The position numbers and the translations under genes were made by a program. Below, in pieces: positions 4,556 to 44,179 of a stretch of DNA of 64,000 bases; position 1 is the stretch's first letter, and every line of letters begins with the position of its first letter. The stretch is from contig NZ_HE578928.1 of the NCBI RefSeq assembly GCF_000313565.1, positions 86,899 to 150,898 of the forward strand, given 5' to 3'. Origin of the DNA: Dielma fastidiosa. Lineage in GTDB: Bacteria; Bacillota_I; Bacilli_A; Erysipelotrichales; Erysipelotrichaceae. The notes under the pieces are model-generated. The model made no database searches and was not told the origin of the DNA. It saw only the letters and a list, made by a program, of their open reading frames with translations.

Positions 4556-5773
4556 ATGTCAGAAAAAAGACGTGACAATAAAGGTCGAATTTTAAAGACT
4601 GGAGAGAGCCAACGAAAAGACGGAAGATACTTATACAAATATACAGATTCATTTGGAGAACCGCAATTTGTTTACTCGTGGAAACTTGTGGCTACAGACA
4701 GAGTACCAGCAGGAAAGCGTGATTGTATCTCACTTAGGGAGAAAATCGCAGAGTTACAGAAAGACATTCATGATGGTATTGATGTTGTAGGAAAGAAAAT
4801 GACACTCTGCCAGCTTTACGCAAAACAGAACGCTCAAAGACCAAAGGTTAGAAAAAATACTGAAACTGGACGCAAATATCTTATGGATATTTTGAAGAAA
4901 GACAAGTTAGGTGCAAGAAGTATTGATAGTATTAAACCATCAGACGCTAAAGAATGGGCGATTAGAATGAGTGAAAATGGTTATGCCTATCAAACCATCA
5001 ATAACTATAAACGTTCTTTAAAGGCTTCATTCTACATTGCGATACAAGATGATTGTGTTCGGAAGAATCCATTTGACTTTCAACTGAATGCAGTTCTTGA
5101 TGATGATACTGTCCCTAAGACCGTACTAACAGGAGAACAGGAAGAAAAACTGTTAGCCTTTGCGAAAGCTGATAAAACCTACAGCAAAAATTATGATGAA
5201 ATTCTGATACTCTTAAAAACAGGTCTTCGTATTTCAGAGTTTGGTGGTTTGACACTTCCAGATTTAGATTTTGAGAATCGTCTTGTCAATATAGACCATC
5301 AGCTATTGAGAGATACTGAAATTGGGTACTACATTGAAACACCAAAGACCAAAAGTGGTGAACGTCAAGTTCCTATGGTTGAAGAAGCCTATCAAGCATT
5401 TAAGCGAGTGTTAGCGAATCGAAAGAATGATAAGCGTGTTGAGATTGATGGATATAGTGATTTCCTCTTTCTTAATAGAAAGAACTATCCAAAAGTGGCG
5501 AGTGACTATAATGGTATGATGAAAGGTCTTGTTAAGAAATACAACAAGTATAATGATGATAAGTTACCACACATCACTCCACATAGTTTGCGACATACAT
5601 TCTGTACCAACTATGCAAATGCAGGAATGAACCCAAAAGCATTACAATACATTATGGGGCATGCAAATATAGCCATGACGCTGAACTATTACGCACACGC
5701 AACATTTGATTCCGCAATGTCAGAGATGAAACGCTTGAATAAAGAGAAGCAACAGGAGCGTCTTGTTGCTTAG
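4556..5773 (+). CDS. int: Tyrosine recombinase, Tn916 integrase
   Basis: This 405-residue protein has the exact family length. It carries an N-terminal arm-binding domain (residues 1-75), a SAM-like core-binding domain (about 80-180) and a tyrosine recombinase catalytic domain. Catalytic motifs are seen at TGLRISEF (Arg near 225), PHSLRHTF (His and Arg near 344-347), MGHANI (His near 370) and LNYYAHAT (Tyr near 379). It cuts and joins the element ends during excision and integration. The gene appears intact, so this end may still be mobile if the rest of the element is complete. Confidence 0.97.
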   Translation: MSEKRRDNKGRILKTGESQRKDGRYLYKYTDSFGEPQFVYSWKLVATDRVPAGKRDCISLREKIAELQKDIHDGIDVVGKKMTLCQLYAKQNAQRPKVRKNTETGRKYLMDILKKDKLGARSIDSIKPSDAKEWAIRMSENGYAYQTINNYKRSLKASFYIAIQDDCVRKNPFDFQLNAVLDDDTVPKTVLTGEQEEKLLAFAKADKTYSKNYDEILILLKTGLRISEFGGLTLPDLDFENRLVNIDHQLLRDTEIGYYIETPKTKSGERQVPMVEEAYQAFKRVLANRKNDKRVEIDGYSDFLFLNRKNYPKVASDYNGMMKGLVKKYNKYNDDKLPHITPHSLRHTFCTNYANAGMNPKALQYIMGHANIAMTLNYYAHATFDSAMSEMKRLNKEKQQERLVA

Positions 5774-6045
5774 TAGTACAAATGAATTTACTACTTATTT
5801 ACCACTTCTGACAGCTAAGACATGAGGAAATATGCAAAGAAACGTGAAGTATCTTCCTACAGTAAAAATACTCGAAAGCACATAGAATAAGGCTTTACGA
5901 GCATTTAAGAAAATATAAAAAGATAATTAGAAATTTATACTTTGTTTATATTAAAAATTACGAGAATTGGAAACAAGACAATCAGGAAATCAAATAAATA
6001 CGACAATTTATCTTTGATAAAGGATGCTAGTACATAAAATACGGT
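5774..6045. other. Right end of the element and chromosomal junction
   Basis: There is no gene here. AGTAGTA (5772-5778) and TACTACT (5789-5795) form a short inverted repeat right after int. The AT-rich tail up to about 5960 looks like the right terminus of a Tn916-type element, and the remainder to 6045 should be chromosomal flank. The precise att site could not be fixed. Confidence 0.6.
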
Positions 6046-7269
6046 TTATTTATGACTGCCTGCATCTTTTACTTCAAGTTGATTCAAGTCATCATTTAAG
6101 CACATCAACAAAAAGGCAAGTATAAATATAACTGCTAAATAAATGAAACCCAGCCAATGATTCACCTGCATAATAACTGTCCCCATGAACATGCCAATGC
6201 TTGGTGACAATAAAATAATGGTATCTATACCGCCTAATACCCTGCTCCTTATTTCTTTATCAATACTTGATATTGTATAACTGAATAAGGGCTGGGTGAT
6301 CGCATCAAAAAATCCATAGCTTAAAAATAAGAACACAAGTAAAAAGGTGTTCACTGGCAAGATCATGAAAATCATACACATTGCACAGCCAATCATACTG
6401 ATTTTAAATAAGCGGCTGACCTTATTGCCGCACTTAGCTACAAGCAGTAAGCCAAGCAAACTGCCTAAGGTTATGGCTGATTTTATAATTCCAAAAGTCA
6501 TTGAATTATTATTCTCTGCGGAAAATACTAAAGGTAGAATATTAGGTATAAAGCCATAGGCAAGATTTAAGATAAACATAATCAGTGTGAAATATCTGAA
6601 ATACTTCTTCTTATAGATATAATTCATTGCAGTTTTCACATCCGCAATGACAGATTGGAATATGTGTTTACGATGCATTGTGATATTACGTTTCTGATAA
6701 ACATAATGTATTTGCATAACGAATAATGATGAGCAAATAAAAGTTAAAACATCAAGTAAGAAAATAGCAGAATAAGGGATTAAAGCAATCAGCAAGCCGA
6801 TGATGGCTGAGCCGATAACATCGATGATTTTATTAGCAATACCAATCATTGATTGAAATCGTATAAATGTTAATTTATCAGAAAATTCGGCACCCATAGC
6901 TAAACTGCTTCTATAAAAGATTTCATTGTTGACATTATTAGCCAAAATTAACAGCAGGCAAACATTAACATTACTTATATAGTAATTAAAGCCAAAGGCA
7001 AATGATAATATAATGATGATGGAGGATAGGTTAGCGAATAAAATCAATTTTTTCTTATCAAAACGGTCGGCAATAATACCTGAGAACATTGCTAAAACAG
7101 CTCTGAATAATATCGATCCGCTTAAAAGGTAAACGGCATCCATGATGTTATTATACCTAATCGTTATTTCCCAAATAATAAATAAATCAAAGAAAACATC
7201 TCCAAATTTATTGATGATTGATGATAATAAAAGCAGTATTAGATTTCTGTTCCTGTTTAAATAATTCAT
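6046..7269 (-). CDS. MFS transporter
   Basis: This 407-residue membrane protein has about 12 hydrophobic segments in two halves joined by a basic loop near residue 200. The loop after TM2-TM3 has IADRFDKKKLI, the conserved MFS signature between helices 2 and 3. The overall layout is like the MFS_3 or EntS/macrolide-efflux-like branch, so export of a small molecule is plausible, but the substrate is not predictable. A modest AAGGGGATT site precedes the ATG. It is the first chromosomal gene next to the transposon end and is transcribed toward it. Confidence 0.8.
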   Translation of the reverse strand: MNYLNRNRNLILLLLSSIINKFGDVFFDLFIIWEITIRYNNIMDAVYLLSGSILFRAVLAMFSGIIADRFDKKKLILFANLSSIIIILSFAFGFNYYISNVNVCLLLILANNVNNEIFYRSSLAMGAEFSDKLTFIRFQSMIGIANKIIDVIGSAIIGLLIALIPYSAIFLLDVLTFICSSLFVMQIHYVYQKRNITMHRKHIFQSVIADVKTAMNYIYKKKYFRYFTLIMFILNLAYGFIPNILPLVFSAENNNSMTFGIIKSAITLGSLLGLLLVAKCGNKVSRLFKISMIGCAMCMIFMILPVNTFLLVFLFLSYGFFDAITQPLFSYTISSIDKEIRSRVLGGIDTIILLSPSIGMFMGTVIMQVNHWLGFIYLAVIFILAFLLMCLNDDLNQLEVKDAGSHK

Positions 7270-7316
7270 AATTTAAATCCCCTTAATCATCAACTAATTG
7301 CCCAAACCGCAAGAAA

Positions 7317-25497: not shown

Positions 25498-26286
25498 ATG
25501 AAAAAAATACTAATAAGTTTCTTATTGATAGCTATGACAGCAGGTTGTGTTCAAACACCATCAGAGACAGATAAGCCAGAAGAACCGCCGGTTGTTGAAC
25601 AGCCTGAAAAACCTGTGGATCAGGAAAAGCCGGAAGAAACTAAGTATGTAGAGAAAATTGATGAAACTAAGGATTGGGTGTATATCAAGGAACAGGAAGT
25701 TGTTACAAAAAATGATTTGGAATTAAATCCCGTATTAAATCAGATGAATTATTATGATTTTCTTGATTGGCTAACCCTTCCATTTGATGATGCACCTAAA
25801 AAAGAGAAACTAATTGTAAATATAAACGCCGAAAGTGTTTCTGCAATAAATGAAGATTTTGAAGCAGGATATAAAGATCCTGTAAATTTTATTTATGAGT
25901 TTAAATGGTTCATAAATGATGCCATGATTACGATTGTAAATAAGTACGGTTCACTAGCACCCCACATGCTGCCTATTTTCTTGGAGGCATATCATATTGA
26001 TTTGAAATCAGGTGAATTAATGTCCAATAATGATCTGTTGTCGGTATATGGATTAACGAGTAGTGATGTTCAAAATATTGTGAATGAATATATATCAGAA
26101 ACCAAGCTTCCTGATGATGATTCTTTCATTGTAAAACAACAATTACTACTAGGAAAAGAATATACAACAAAATACAGTAATAAATCATTACTGATTGTAG
26201 ATAATAATGATTTATATTATATCATCGGATATTATTCTAAAGCTATGTCAGGTAATATCGTATTTCAGAAAATCAAATTAAATTAA
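25498..26286 (+). CDS. Tandem-family lipoprotein, copy 1
   Basis: This 262-residue protein has lipobox TAGC near residues 14-17, a proline/glutamate-rich linker (PVVEQPEKP repeated) and the motif KIDETKDWVYI near residue 58. The C-terminal domain contains YHIDLKSGELMSNNDLL, similar to DUF3298/RsiV-type domains. The first 65 residues are almost identical to those of the next gene, while the rest differs. GAGGTGGGAAGAT precedes the ATG. The role is unknown; such proteins are exposed outside the membrane. Confidence 0.78.
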   Translation: MKKILISFLLIAMTAGCVQTPSETDKPEEPPVVEQPEKPVDQEKPEETKYVEKIDETKDWVYIKEQEVVTKNDLELNPVLNQMNYYDFLDWLTLPFDDAPKKEKLIVNINAESVSAINEDFEAGYKDPVNFIYEFKWFINDAMITIVNKYGSLAPHMLPIFLEAYHIDLKSGELMSNNDLLSVYGLTSSDVQNIVNEYISETKLPDDDSFIVKQQLLLGKEYTTKYSNKSLLIVDNNDLYYIIGYYSKAMSGNIVFQKIKLN

Positions 26287-26331
26287 ATCATAGAATTGAT
26301 TTTAATGAGTGGAAAGACGAGGTGGAAAGAC

Positions 26332-27153
26332 ATGAAAAAAATACTAATAAGTTTTTTATTGATGGCAATGATAGCGGGATGTGTGCAAACACCGCCGGAG
26401 GCAGAGAAGCCAGAAGAAGCGCCGGTTGTTGAACAGCCTGAAAAACCTGTGGAACAGGAGAAGCCGGAAGAAACTAAGTATGTTAAGAAAATCGATGAGA
26501 CAAAAGATTGGGTGTACATTAATGACATTCATACTTCAGATATGGATTTTGCATATCTTGATATGAAACAGACAATACTTGATTCAGAATTTACATCAGG
26601 TAATGAACTGGAAAACTGGTTCAATACAATCGTAACATATACACCCGAAATTCAAGATTTTACGATTAATATGGACAGCATTGATGCAGAAAATATCAAC
26701 CGTTGGATTCAGGAACAAGTGCGATCAAAACTTGCTGATCCTAAATCTAGGGGTGAACATGTATTTAAAGCAAAAGCATTTGAAAACGAGGAAATCTTAT
26801 CCGTTTTAATTCGTTCATGCTTATTTCTCCCTGGTTCAGGTTGGACCAGCGATACCTATATCTATAATTTTGACTTATTCTCTGGTAAAACACTGACAAA
26901 TGAAGAACTTTTAGAGAAAGTGCTTCTGGACAATTTACAAGTAAAAGAATTATTAAAACGTACTTTTGATGAAAATTATGAAATAGCTTGTGATTATCCT
27001 GTTAATCTAACATCCTGTTACTACTGGCAAGATTTTGATGTAAATGATATTAATTATAATTATATCTTTATGGTTGATAATCAGTTGAATATTCTATGGT
27101 CATGTAGTGATGAACAAGGCTACGAATATTATAAACAATTTTCAATAAAATAG
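26332..27153 (+). CDS. Tandem-family lipoprotein, copy 2
   Basis: This 273-residue protein starts at the ATG at 26332 after GAGGTGG. It has lipobox IAGC, the same Pro/Glu linker and KIDETKDWVYI, then a domain with YNFDLFSGKTLTNEELL. Nucleotide identity to copy 1 is high through the first 190 bases and then falls off sharply. It likely arose by duplication 46 bases downstream of copy 1. Confidence 0.78.
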   Translation: MKKILISFLLMAMIAGCVQTPPEAEKPEEAPVVEQPEKPVEQEKPEETKYVKKIDETKDWVYINDIHTSDMDFAYLDMKQTILDSEFTSGNELENWFNTIVTYTPEIQDFTINMDSIDAENINRWIQEQVRSKLADPKSRGEHVFKAKAFENEEILSVLIRSCLFLPGSGWTSDTYIYNFDLFSGKTLTNEELLEKVLLDNLQVKELLKRTFDENYEIACDYPVNLTSCYYWQDFDVNDINYNYIFMVDNQLNILWSCSDEQGYEYYKQFSIK

Positions 27154-35908: not shown

Positions 35909-36442
35909 TTATTTCAGCAAGTCAGCAAGATAAAGCTCATCTCTCTGATGTTTTCCTTTAAGCTGTTTGTAACGCTTAATTGAATCTACCAGCAGATCAA
36001 TTCTTTCACCATAATAATCACGATAGAACGCCGTGTTATTGTTGTATCGTATTCGGTTGTAGATTACATTTTCCTTACTGAAAGTTTTAGGAGAAATTCT
36101 AGATTTCACTTTTTCAAAATCTGACTCTTTGTTTTCAGATAGTATCAGCAACATTTCCAATTCCGGTTTTGTACAATATTTTTTTATGTCTTTTATTTTT
36201 CCTTTGTACTCTCTTGGAATTTTCAGTTCATCATTAAGCTTATCACCGATTCGAAGTACATGTACATCTCCATGGTACAAATTCAGCGCAGCTTTTACCG
36301 CAGCATTATTTCCAATCTGCCTTGCATGGTAAGGAATCAAATTCAATAAATCATCTTCTGTAATTATTAATTGTTCGTGCTCCAACAACAATCGGATAAT
36401 TTCAAGTTCATTTGGACCTTCACACATAATCAGATACTTCAT
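35909..36442 (-). CDS. TOPRIM/RloB-like protein of an AAA ATPase pair
   Basis: This 177-residue protein begins MKYLIMCEGPNELEIIRLLL, the TOPRIM-like opening with an acidic residue in CEG. VHVLRIGDKLNDEL near residues 63-76 may hold the second acidic pair. TKPELEMLLIL near residue 93 recalls the NPxFExW segment of RloB-type proteins. Its start overlaps the ATPase stop by four bases. In known systems such TOPRIM partners are nucleases released by an AAA ATPase on phage attack. The assignment is by motif only; the DxD site is imperfect, so activity is unproven. Confidence 0.6.
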   Translation of the reverse strand: MKYLIMCEGPNELEIIRLLLEHEQLIITEDDLLNLIPYHARQIGNNAAVKAALNLYHGDVHVLRIGDKLNDELKIPREYKGKIKDIKKYCTKPELEMLLILSENKESDFEKVKSRISPKTFSKENVIYNRIRYNNNTAFYRDYYGERIDLLVDSIKRYKQLKGKHQRDELYLADLLK

Positions 36443-37557
36443 ATCATGAGCTCCTTCTTCAATGCCATAAGATCTTCATAATTAACAGAAGTATCAAAAG
36501 CATTATTGTAAAATTGACGGCTCTTTAAAAGTTCCGGTCTGATATTGTAGATTTCATACATATTATCCAAGCGAATCTTATCATCTGATTTTGCAATCCA
36601 AATATTGTCCTGACGATTGAATAAATCTAAAACTTCACAATAATGCGTAGTAAATAAAAGAGTTGCTGATTTTTTATTAACTGTCTTATCTTTAAACAAA
36701 CTAATCATATTTTCAACAAGCGTCTTATGGAAATGATTTTCCACTTCATCTATCAACAGATCAAATCCATTTTCCAAAGCCGCAACTACCATTATATATA
36801 GAAGTACGCCTTTTGTCGTACCGCTGGATAAAGTGTAAATCAGTTCTGAATCAGAAAGTTCTTTTACATGATTCTGATACACAAGTTTGTAATGATTATC
36901 ATCGACCATTTCCAAACTCTGAATCTTATCATCAAAAATTTTAATCACTTTTGTCAGAACATTCTTTGAAATTTTATAGTTTTTCATAGTTCGGAACATT
37001 AGACGATATGTGTCTGCACCTTCACCATCACAGTTAAAATATATAGCTCGGGTAGCTTTCTTTTTTAAAATAAAGAACACAATAGAAGTATCTTCTGGAA
37101 GCTCTCCTAAATCGAAAATTTCTTCAAAACCTTCGATAGAATAAATTTCTTTATTCTTTGATTTATAATATTTTTTTCGATAGATATGCTGCTCGGTGAA
37201 ATTGGCTTTATTTCCTAATATCGCATCAGATTTTAAAACTGTATTGTATTTATAGATGGTATCTTCATGATAGAAAATGATTTCTAATTTCACATTGTCA
37301 TAATTATAATGTTTATCTTCCAAACGGAACTCGCCAAGAATAGAGTAACCGCATTCCATCAGCTCAATCGCAGAAGTTTTACCAGAAGCATTCTTACCGA
37401 TGAATGCAGCTGTATTAAACACATATAAATCTTCCGCAATCTCCTGCAGCTCATATTCCTTATCCTCACTTGTTTTTTTAGATTTTGCCACAAGATCAAT
37501 GGTAAAATCATCGCAGCAGTTTTTATAGTTTGATGCACGAACTCTTAATAGTTTCAT
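36439..37557 (-). CDS. AAA15-type ATPase, likely phage-defence component
   Basis: This 372-residue SMC/RecF-like ATPase has Walker A IGKNASGKTS near residues 54-63, a middle coiled insert, the signature-like LSSGTTKG near residue 245, the Walker B LLIDEVENHF and the following LLFTTHYCEVLD. The pattern fits AAA15/AAA21 (OLD-like) ATPases, which sense phage or damage together with a TOPRIM nuclease. It forms a two-gene unit with the 35909-36442 gene. AAGGAAGG is before the ATG. PARIS-type, RloAB-like or other pairs are possible. Confidence 0.85.
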   Translation of the reverse strand: MKLLRVRASNYKNCCDDFTIDLVAKSKKTSEDKEYELQEIAEDLYVFNTAAFIGKNASGKTSAIELMECGYSILGEFRLEDKHYNYDNVKLEIIFYHEDTIYKYNTVLKSDAILGNKANFTEQHIYRKKYYKSKNKEIYSIEGFEEIFDLGELPEDTSIVFFILKKKATRAIYFNCDGEGADTYRLMFRTMKNYKISKNVLTKVIKIFDDKIQSLEMVDDNHYKLVYQNHVKELSDSELIYTLSSGTTKGVLLYIMVVAALENGFDLLIDEVENHFHKTLVENMISLFKDKTVNKKSATLLFTTHYCEVLDLFNRQDNIWIAKSDDKIRLDNMYEIYNIRPELLKSRQFYNNAFDTSVNYEDLMALKKELMI

Positions 37558-37800
37558 ATAATTTACCTTCCTTTACCATCATCTATTCGTATTATAACCA
37601 AATAAGTTATTTAAAACAAGTTTTTTGTTTTAATTTGTTTTATTTATATATTTATGTGTTTTTTATTTATTTTTAATGTATTATTTTGTATTAAATATTT
37701 CACTTGTTAATCTAATGTGATTAGCAAAAAACTTTTGGCAGAATACTGCATTCTTATTCAATTTTTTTAATGCTCTCTTCTGAATTGCAAATATTAAAAA
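37558..37800. other. AT-rich intergenic region
   Basis: These 243 bases are very AT-rich and hold no gene. They carry the promoter region of the ATPase pair and lie downstream of the acyltransferase. Low GC here may mark the edge of an acquired segment. Confidence 0.5.
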
Positions 37801-37826
37801 AACCTGAAATCAAAGGATCTCAGGTT
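37801..37826 (-). terminator. Terminator of the acyltransferase gene
   Basis: AACCTGA (37801-37807) and TCAGGTT (37820-37826) pair, overlapping the stop codon, and on the minus strand they lead into seven Ts. Confidence 0.8.
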
Positions 37827-38865
37827 ATTCAAATAGCTTTTTAAGCAGCGGTACTTTTTTCAGACACCATGCCGCCAACGCACAGAATGCAAATAAAAAT
37901 ATTTCATATAATACGACGCTGACAAGACGGTTATTAAAATACAGAATTTCATAACGTACAACACTCAGATGGGTATTATAAATCATATGGACAACATAGA
38001 TGCCAAAGGTCGTAGCCGCAACATTGGACAGCATTTTGCCTGACCATCCTTTAAATTCACATTTACCCGCCAGCGTATAGACTGTGAAAAACACCAGCAC
38101 CGCCAGTATCATCGTTGGCAGGTAATAAAGATTATCCAGCATCAAATACATCTGTCCCCATGTATTTAACTCATACAAGCCGCTGTATACACTTAGAATC
38201 AATATACAAGGAATTGCCAGCAGTGTCAGCAGCCAGCCGCACCGCTGTACTTTAAGACTGAAATCAGTCTGAGTAATTGCATAACCGGCAAACATATAAC
38301 CGATAAAATTACTCATAATCTGCACATCAAACCAGAAAGTAACCGTCGGTATAATTTCATAACGCACCAATACCGGCAGCAAGCCGCTGAAAAAAGCCCA
38401 GCCGATGAAGAAATAAAGCCAGTCCGCCTGCTTCATGGCGATGATGATCTTTCTTAAAAACGGCAGAATGAGATAAGCACCTAACAGCATATAAAAATAC
38501 CAGTAAGAAGTGATAATCGGTGCTTCAATAATACGATTGATAAAATCATGAAGATTGAATGCATTGCCTTCTTCAACTAAATATATATAAAGTGAAAATA
38601 AGAGTAAAACTGCCGCAACCTTACCCACTTTATGAATCAGCAGCTCCTTGTAGCTGTACTCTCTGCGCAGCAGCAGCGCTCCTGAAATCATCAAAAAGAT
38701 TGGTACCGCAATTTTACTGAAATAAAAATATGCCAGTGATAATGCCCAGGTCAGACTGGGATTCATTCCTAAAAATACTTCTGAATTCGTATGATTGACA
38801 ATTACCAGGAAACACGCCAGAATCCTTAAAATATCAAATGCATAATTATGTCCTCTTTGCTTCAT
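37825..38865 (-). CDS. Acyltransferase family 3 membrane protein
   Basis: This 346-residue, ten-helix protein has an FDILRILACFLVIVNHTNSE start in which the conserved R and H of acyltransferase_3 are seen. Such proteins acetylate or otherwise modify cell-surface sugars. The start at 38865 follows AGAGGAGG; a GTG at 38886 in frame is less likely. It stands alone. Confidence 0.88.
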   Translation of the reverse strand: MKQRGHNYAFDILRILACFLVIVNHTNSEVFLGMNPSLTWALSLAYFYFSKIAVPIFLMISGALLLRREYSYKELLIHKVGKVAAVLLLFSLYIYLVEEGNAFNLHDFINRIIEAPIITSYWYFYMLLGAYLILPFLRKIIIAMKQADWLYFFIGWAFFSGLLPVLVRYEIIPTVTFWFDVQIMSNFIGYMFAGYAITQTDFSLKVQRCGWLLTLLAIPCILILSVYSGLYELNTWGQMYLMLDNLYYLPTMILAVLVFFTVYTLAGKCEFKGWSGKMLSNVAATTFGIYVVHMIYNTHLSVVRYEILYFNNRLVSVVLYEIFLFAFCALAAWCLKKVPLLKKLFE

Positions 38866-43506: not shown

Positions 43507-44179
43507 ATGGTAATAAAATTTTATGACGAAAAAAATATAATTAGAATCATACAATCTGGATTAGTTAATTAAAAACATATTTATTGAATAAAAGCTTTTT
43601 ATATGTTTACTATGATACCTTAAAAAAGATTACGATTTTATTGAATTAATATTTAAAAAAGAACATTTCAAGCATTTGTGTGGAATAAGCAATAATCCTA
43701 AAGATGTTTTTATTTATGAAAATGCCGGCATTCATAAGGAAGTCTTGTCTCCTATAAAATTTTATGATATTTGTAAAGCTAAACGGTTAGGTTATAAACA
43801 CATAATAATAAAAAAGGATTCTTCAACTATACAAAAAATGAATATCCTTAACAATCTTCATTTATTAACACAAAATGAAACTATTTATTGTAATATATTG
43901 GGTGTACATAATATTTTACGATGCGATGGTATGATTGGGCTTTCAAAAGGCAATATCTCTTTAGCATTGCGTAATTTAAATGGTTATTCCATACCACTAA
44001 GTTCATTAGATTTCGATATAACCGATAGTGGTGAGAATCTATTTGAAGTTTATCTAGTAGCTAGTAAAAAGATAAATGAAAAAAAATATTCTTGTATCAA
44101 TCTACAAAAAATAGATATAGAAAAACTTCCTTATGGAATTAAAGAATTATTAAATATAAAAGATAACGTACATAGTTAA
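43507..44179 (+). pseudogene. Frameshifted gene, candidate toxin, possibly PBECR4-like
   Basis: A GGGGG site and ATG at 43507 open a frame that ends after 21 codons at 43570-43572. Adding one T near 43569 and one A in the run at 43622-43627 gives a continuous protein of about 220 residues: MVIKFYDEKNI..., then YYDTLKKDYDFIELIFKKEHF, KHLCGIS and RLGYKHIIIK. The pattern F-x-K-x-x-F-x-H-L-x-G-I recalls the PBECR4 (BECR-fold nuclease) family from memory; it was not checked. It follows a repeat RNA and terminator, so it could be a type III toxin. The two slips may be real decay or base-call errors in A/T runs. Confidence 0.55.

Follow-up and report, generated by a model that had tools for sequence, protein, structure and literature searches.

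The window, i.e. the whole stretch of 64,000 nucleotides from Dielma fastidiosa that was analysed, contains two overlapping genes on its minus strand. Gene A (36439-37557, minus strand) is an open reading frame for a 372-residue ATPase of the ABC/Rad50 type that is sister to AbiLi. It is followed by gene B (35909-36442, minus strand), whose 177-residue product is a putative effector and, judged from the reading frame, alignments and a structural model, carries the residues of an OLD-type metal site (E8, E12, D67, T91 and E94/E96). The stop codon of A and the start codon of B share the 4 bp ATGA (36439-36442, minus strand), which confirms the overlap of two minus-strand reading frames described in the first-pass annotation and is likely to cause translational coupling. 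Overlaps or near-overlaps of both genes were also found in the loci L111 and L113-L118. Upstream of gene A we read from the sequence a ribosome-binding site GGAAGG (37566-37571), a -10-like hexamer TATAAT (37591-37596) and, separated from it by a spacer of 17 nt, a -35-like hexamer TTGTTT (37614-37619; absent from the list of the consensus scan), all on the minus strand. The latter lies inside the right arm of a dyad with the 17-bp core AAACA-N7-TGTTT (37614-37630), the extended form of which spans 37611-37633 (TTAAAACAAAAAACTTGTTTTAA).

In the window the pair is flanked by genes for an acyltransferase and an MFS transporter. Elsewhere in the window we noted a seemingly split gene of the tet(M) ribosomal-protection type (29-910 and 922-1962; 293 and 346 residues) with a Tn916-type integrase gene nearby (4556-5773), both named from their sequence. 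Besides, two lipoprotein-like genes in tandem (25498-26286 and 26296-27153) closely resemble each other and are likely the product of a recent duplication, and a reading frame of 167 residues (43676-44179) has a GC content of 26%, far below its surroundings, and is possibly an acquired gene.

The product of gene A contains all four motifs of an ABC ATPase, namely Walker A (GKNASGKT), signature (LSSGTTKG), Walker B (LLIDEVENHFHK) and H-loop (TTHY), and they are conserved in 28 relatives. The first three had already been noticed in the first-pass annotation. In Pfam, the profile AAA_21 was matched above its cut-off (9.4e-12), and AAA_15, the label used in that annotation, only below its cut-off (6e-4). 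In Foldseek the predicted structure (pLDDT 87) matched Rad50, PtuA, retron PtuA and TsOLD, Rad50 heads being the top fold matches. Gene A thus encodes a Rad50/PtuA-like ABC ATPase. Among the PADLOC models AbiLi scored best (PDLC02335; 1.6e-36, 124 bits), followed by AriA (1e-12, 46 bits). Maximum-likelihood analysis of 60 ATPases placed the A proteins that are paired with B in one clade (34/34, support 99/98), which adjoins the ATPases paired with RloB. Members of the B-paired family reached 98-127 bits on AbiLi, compared with 227-316 bits for RloB-paired ATPases of the same class, the partners of which match AbiLii. From the position of the A clade beside the RloB-paired ATPases and the higher score for AbiLi than for AriA we conclude that the pair represents a sister branch of AbiL with a different partner, and does not belong to PARIS.

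A scan with A as query detected 43 loci in bacterial genomes, mostly of Lachnospiraceae and other gut and rumen Firmicutes, and more distant pairs came from related genomes, from plasmids and from viral contigs, the last again searched with A. Altogether, dozens of Firmicutes from gut and rumen carry the pair, which is also present on contigs of prophages and plasmids; its carriers further include megaplasmids of Bifidobacterium and a plasmid of Ligilactobacillus salivarius. The B homologue of this plasmid (WP_095759350.1; L075:5124-5666, 180 residues) has the motifs of B and is annotated as 'N-6 DNA methylase', which looks like a misnomer. In all loci examined an intact gene B directly follows A. 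Moreover, all 12 intact B genes that a B-profile search detected in 392 genomes of the phylum were preceded by A, and searches with B in related genomes and in the phylum found no intact B without A. The protein distances of A and B were closely correlated (r = 0.97, Mantel p 0.0005, 25 pairs), and the dN/dS of the pair was 0.03-0.06 where computable, with dS near saturation. These data support the view that A and B behave as an obligate pair; a two-gene unit had been supposed at first reading.

The pairs most similar to that of the window come from Lachnospiraceae, with a DNA identity of about 81% that is confined to the unit, and the distribution is patchy (9/98 related genomes, 15/392 genomes of the phylum). 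Therefore, the pair has spread horizontally, and it occurs across families with unrelated flanks. Similarity at the DNA level begins about 85 nt before A and ceases where B ends, i.e. it comprises promoter and genes. A transposable unit with defined ends was considered and rejected, as neither terminal repeats nor a target duplication were established. Upstream of the intact pair of locus L045, at a distance of about 3 kb, there is a second, partial copy of the ATPase gene (2401-2781), which covers residues 1-127 at 58% identity.

Several pairs are located beside defence genes. These comprise Thoeris ThsB and TIR genes (L032), a TIR gene (L057), AbiH (L066), HsdR/HsdM (L070) and GmrSD (L052), and a macro-domain gene adjoins the pair in L041. 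Relaxase or recombinase genes are neighbours in L032, L040 and L043, while viral contigs with the pair contain terminase, integrase or phage helicase, primase or polymerase genes. The remaining loci, including the window, have housekeeping contexts; across genomes the neighbours are accordingly not housekeeping genes only.

The region upstream of gene A had been regarded as a sign of acquisition because of its AT-richness. The AT-richness is real (GC 0.31 across 36001-38000) but is by itself no evidence of acquisition, since the region holds a conserved promoter and the operator-like dyad. Most close relatives have a TATAAT-like hexamer at the corresponding position, and in most the right arm of the dyad doubles as the -35 box, as it does in the window. 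Allowing for one mismatch at most, the dyad AAACR-N7-YGTTT precedes gene A in 39 of 52 pairs (3.1 expected from dinucleotide shuffles), at a position 14-66 nt before the start codon. With the same tolerance it was present in six of nine further loci on viral contigs, none of which had been used to define it, and it was found before none of 12 RloB control pairs. In many loci the arms reach about 12 bp. They covary, with changes on both sides in 11 of 12 pairs and a covariation score of 0.277 compared with 0.148 in shuffles (0/500 as high), and slid registers dropped to background. The covariation is restricted to Watson-Crick pairs; G-U pairs were not above shuffles, which indicates selection on double-stranded symmetry. 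Since the core also lies upstream of the -10 hexamer in the window, a DNA operator fits better than an RNA hairpin, and a hairpin or retron-like element was rejected.

Both deep branches of the A tree have retained the dyad, and it is present on a Lactobacillus plasmid and in Bifidobacterium. Together with its varying position relative to the genes, this makes it look like an operator that is read by the system itself. It is possible, though we hold it somewhat doubtful, that the dyad is instead the site of a host regulator or a mere part of an AT-rich promoter. No DNA-binding domain recognisable in Pfam was found in A or B, and the right arm coincides with the -35 box in most close relatives, both of which would suit such an origin. 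Against this reading speak the retention of the dyad across the distant lineages named above, its location only 14-21 nt from the ATG in L004, L005 and L076, and its absence before the RloB pairs. Moreover, the extended site is unique in the host genome when up to three mismatches are allowed. As to the protein that reads the putative operator, our tentative proposal is that the dyad is bound by the ABC ATPase, either by itself or together with B, in place of a helix-turn-helix protein. The module would thereby repress its own transcription, and a phage that captures the complex would both free the effector and raise expression.

The product of gene B begins with MKYLIMCEGPNE. The CEG motif at the start of this 177-residue partner had been recognised before, and C7, E8 and G9 are indeed invariant in an alignment of 27 relatives, as is E12. 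In 25 diverse members the invariant positions comprise E8, G9, E12, R41, D67, T91, E94, E96 and L98. The B proteins of the family have 170-190 residues and lack a DxD motif. Of the acids in the segment GDKLND, which had been proposed for a check whether they form a Toprim site with E8, only D67 is invariant; of the Toprim pattern of a glutamate and a DxD, E8 and D67 are retained and the second aspartate is absent. Searches of Pfam, PADLOC, NCBIfam and the PDB sequences yielded nothing for gene B that exceeded chance. A profile search for DUF4435 had been proposed, and this profile (PF14491) matched none of the 27 B proteins. Single B members matched PDC-M38B, Csx26 and Cas11d weakly; these matches were at chance level and were discarded.

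The AlphaFold model of B (pLDDT 94, pTM 0.90) has the order strand-helix-(short strand)-helix-strand-(short turn)-strand-helix, which in the model appears compatible with a Toprim fold. E8 follows strand 1 and D67 strand 3, while T91-P93-E94-E96 are located at the start of the helix that follows strand 4. The two-metal Toprim site of BpOLD is built by E400, E404 (+4), D455, D457, T506 and E508, with E508 contributed by a helix of its helical domain (PMC6755086). Each of these ligands except D457 has a counterpart in B, where E8, E12 (+4), D67, T91 and E94/E96 correspond to E400, E404, D455, T506 and E508; the spacing from threonine to glutamate differs. A Foldseek search with this high-confidence model found no match with E < 1e-3 in PDB or BFVD, and no Toprim fold. 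The earlier description as Toprim- or RloB-like may hold: the residue pattern and the order of secondary structure elements fit an OLD-type Toprim site, but the fold search did not recover one, and the resemblance to RloB is slight. In a comparison with a profile of 20 RloB proteins three motifs were in register and the score beat 300/300 column shuffles, whereas the hhalign probability was not significant (16% local, 28% global at best) and 2/200 block shuffles scored equally high. At the level of sequence profiles the similarity of B to RloB is therefore weak and suggestive. Membership of B in the RloB family was rejected, as neither the AbiLii nor the RloB profile (PDLC02337, PF13707) matched it.

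From the residue pattern and the modelled architecture we consider B to be probably a Toprim-like nuclease. If B were instead an alpha/beta effector or adaptor with no relation to Toprim that depends on A, this would agree with the missing fold and family matches and the incomplete DxD. We think such a protein unlikely, because the order of strands and helices and the placement of the invariant acids match Toprim and the in-register similarity to the RloB profile exceeded all column shuffles.

With AbiL, a system of Lactococcus and other bacteria, the pair shares the arrangement as a two-gene operon in which the ATPase comes first and a small partner overlaps or adjoins it, and the order of motifs is alike in B and RloB (EG..E, D, S/TxP..E). 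In contrast to canonical partners, which match AbiLii at 61-88 bits, B never does; it lacks the DxD, A forms a separate clade with lower scores on AbiLi, and the dyad is lacking before the RloB pairs. PARIS likewise encodes an ATPase and a Toprim-type effector on separate genes, with a proposed logic of sensor and effector. However, the match of A to AriA is far weaker than that to AbiLi (46 and 124 bits), and B is shorter and shows no DUF4435 match. Therefore, the kinship to PARIS proposed in the first-pass annotation was abandoned, while its idea of a distinct subtype gained support. OLD, Gabija GajA and retron-associated OLD also combine an ABC ATPase with a Toprim domain, and the invariant residues of B mirror the BpOLD ligands just as A matched TsOLD. 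Here, the domains reside on two proteins and B lacks the second aspartate of the DxD. Unlike in Gabija and retron OLD systems, no GajB helicase or reverse transcriptase adjoins the pair; in the window neither a UvrD-like helicase nor a reverse transcriptase with an ncRNA was found beside it. Finally, the NetFlax pairs of an AAA ATPase (D29) with TOPRIM_OLD proteins (D44, D60) resemble our pair in that an AAA ATPase neutralises a Toprim-type toxin (PMC10440598), with the difference that B is no member of the Pfam RloB family. A further type of pair was seen in L085, L086, L138 and L140, in which an ATPase is accompanied by a protein of 240-260 residues with EG..TE and S-P-C-E motifs that stands between RloB and unassigned; the partner in L085, which was checked, was not recognised as AbiLii by PADLOC.

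Gene B decays selectively. We counted 33 loci from the scan with A that had a full-length A and sequence covering the place of B, and B was broken in 13 of them. The lesions differ and comprise internal deletions, replacements and the insertion of a recombinase gene; of the 13 loci, four derive from isolates and the rest from metagenome-assembled genomes. In four more loci both genes were broken, and none had an intact B with a broken A. The asymmetry of 13 to 0 is significant (exact test, p = 0.0002), bearing in mind that the use of A as query could favour A; the searches with B added one further intact A with a frameshifted B (L121). Loss of B with A kept, and never the reverse, is expected if B does harm unless A restrains it. 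In Intestinimonas butyriciproducens An565 (L036:7116-8598) gene B enters after about 125 codons a recombinase-like frame resembling a serine recombinase, which suggests insertion of a mobile element into B. At L061 near-identical terminator-like sequences lie on both sides of the damaged unit (about 5860-5920 and 7245-7310), perhaps as a trace of an insertion or deletion.

Taken together, we favour the interpretation, with a probability of roughly two in three, that A and B constitute a horizontally spread two-gene defence module in which an ATPase sensor and a small nuclease effector would work in analogy to AbiL and PARIS. What had been proposed as a candidate phage-defence pair is thus retained with respect to the ATPase, its obligate small partner, the horizontal transfer and the occasional proximity to defence genes, but without the relation to PARIS. 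By analogy with AbiL, PARIS and AAA/TOPRIM_OLD pairs, A most likely senses infection and holds B, and B most likely cuts nucleic acid. A probably forms dimers or larger assemblies, would hold B inactive and would respond to a phage-derived trigger. B probably cuts via an OLD-type two-metal Toprim site, and its target may be RNA, as the tRNA that is cut by AriB (PMC12409363), or DNA, as for OLD. The infected cell would then stop, so that the phage could not spread. One promoter presumably drives the operon and overlaps the 17-bp palindromic putative operator, which is inherited with the system; autoregulation by A or an A-B complex, as in toxin-antitoxin operons, is the simplest reading. The toxicity that we infer for B has precedents, since pairs of AAA with TOPRIM_OLD were validated as neutraliser and toxin (PMC10440598), and one AbiLii was toxic in E. 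coli, where its AbiLi did not neutralise it (PMC3985639).

The same observations bear on the idea of a plain toxin-antitoxin or addiction module, in which B is the toxin, A the ATPase neutraliser, and mobile elements are maintained with no role in phage defence. The asymmetric loss of B, the private dyad before the operon, the carriage on ICE-like, plasmid and prophage contigs and the known TOPRIM_OLD toxins neutralised by AAA proteins (PMC10440598) would all agree with it. Nevertheless, so large an ABC ATPase, in which the Walker and signature motifs are strictly conserved, would be costly as a mere antidote, and several loci adjoin defence genes; although this reading overlaps with that of a defence module, on its own it seems rather improbable. 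A housekeeping pair for nucleic-acid repair or processing, composed of a Rad50/SbcC-like ATPase and a small nuclease, is very improbable, for despite the Rad50 heads among the best fold matches of A and the housekeeping genes that flank many loci, the pair is confined to 9/98 related genomes and 15/392 of the phylum, is spread over families with unrelated flanks, often loses B and is carried by phages and plasmids.

The interpretation as a defence module has consequences for the annotation of such systems. B is not recognised by PADLOC, Pfam or NCBIfam, only an incomplete AbiLi-like label is possible, and the pair has therefore probably been overlooked in gut and rumen Firmicutes. Beyond the first-pass annotation, the comparison revealed the conserved putative operator and the preferential breakage of gene B. 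The recurrent decay of this one partner predicts which of the two proteins is toxic, and a conserved private operator would provide a direct handle on how defences composed of an ATPase and an effector are silenced and switched on.
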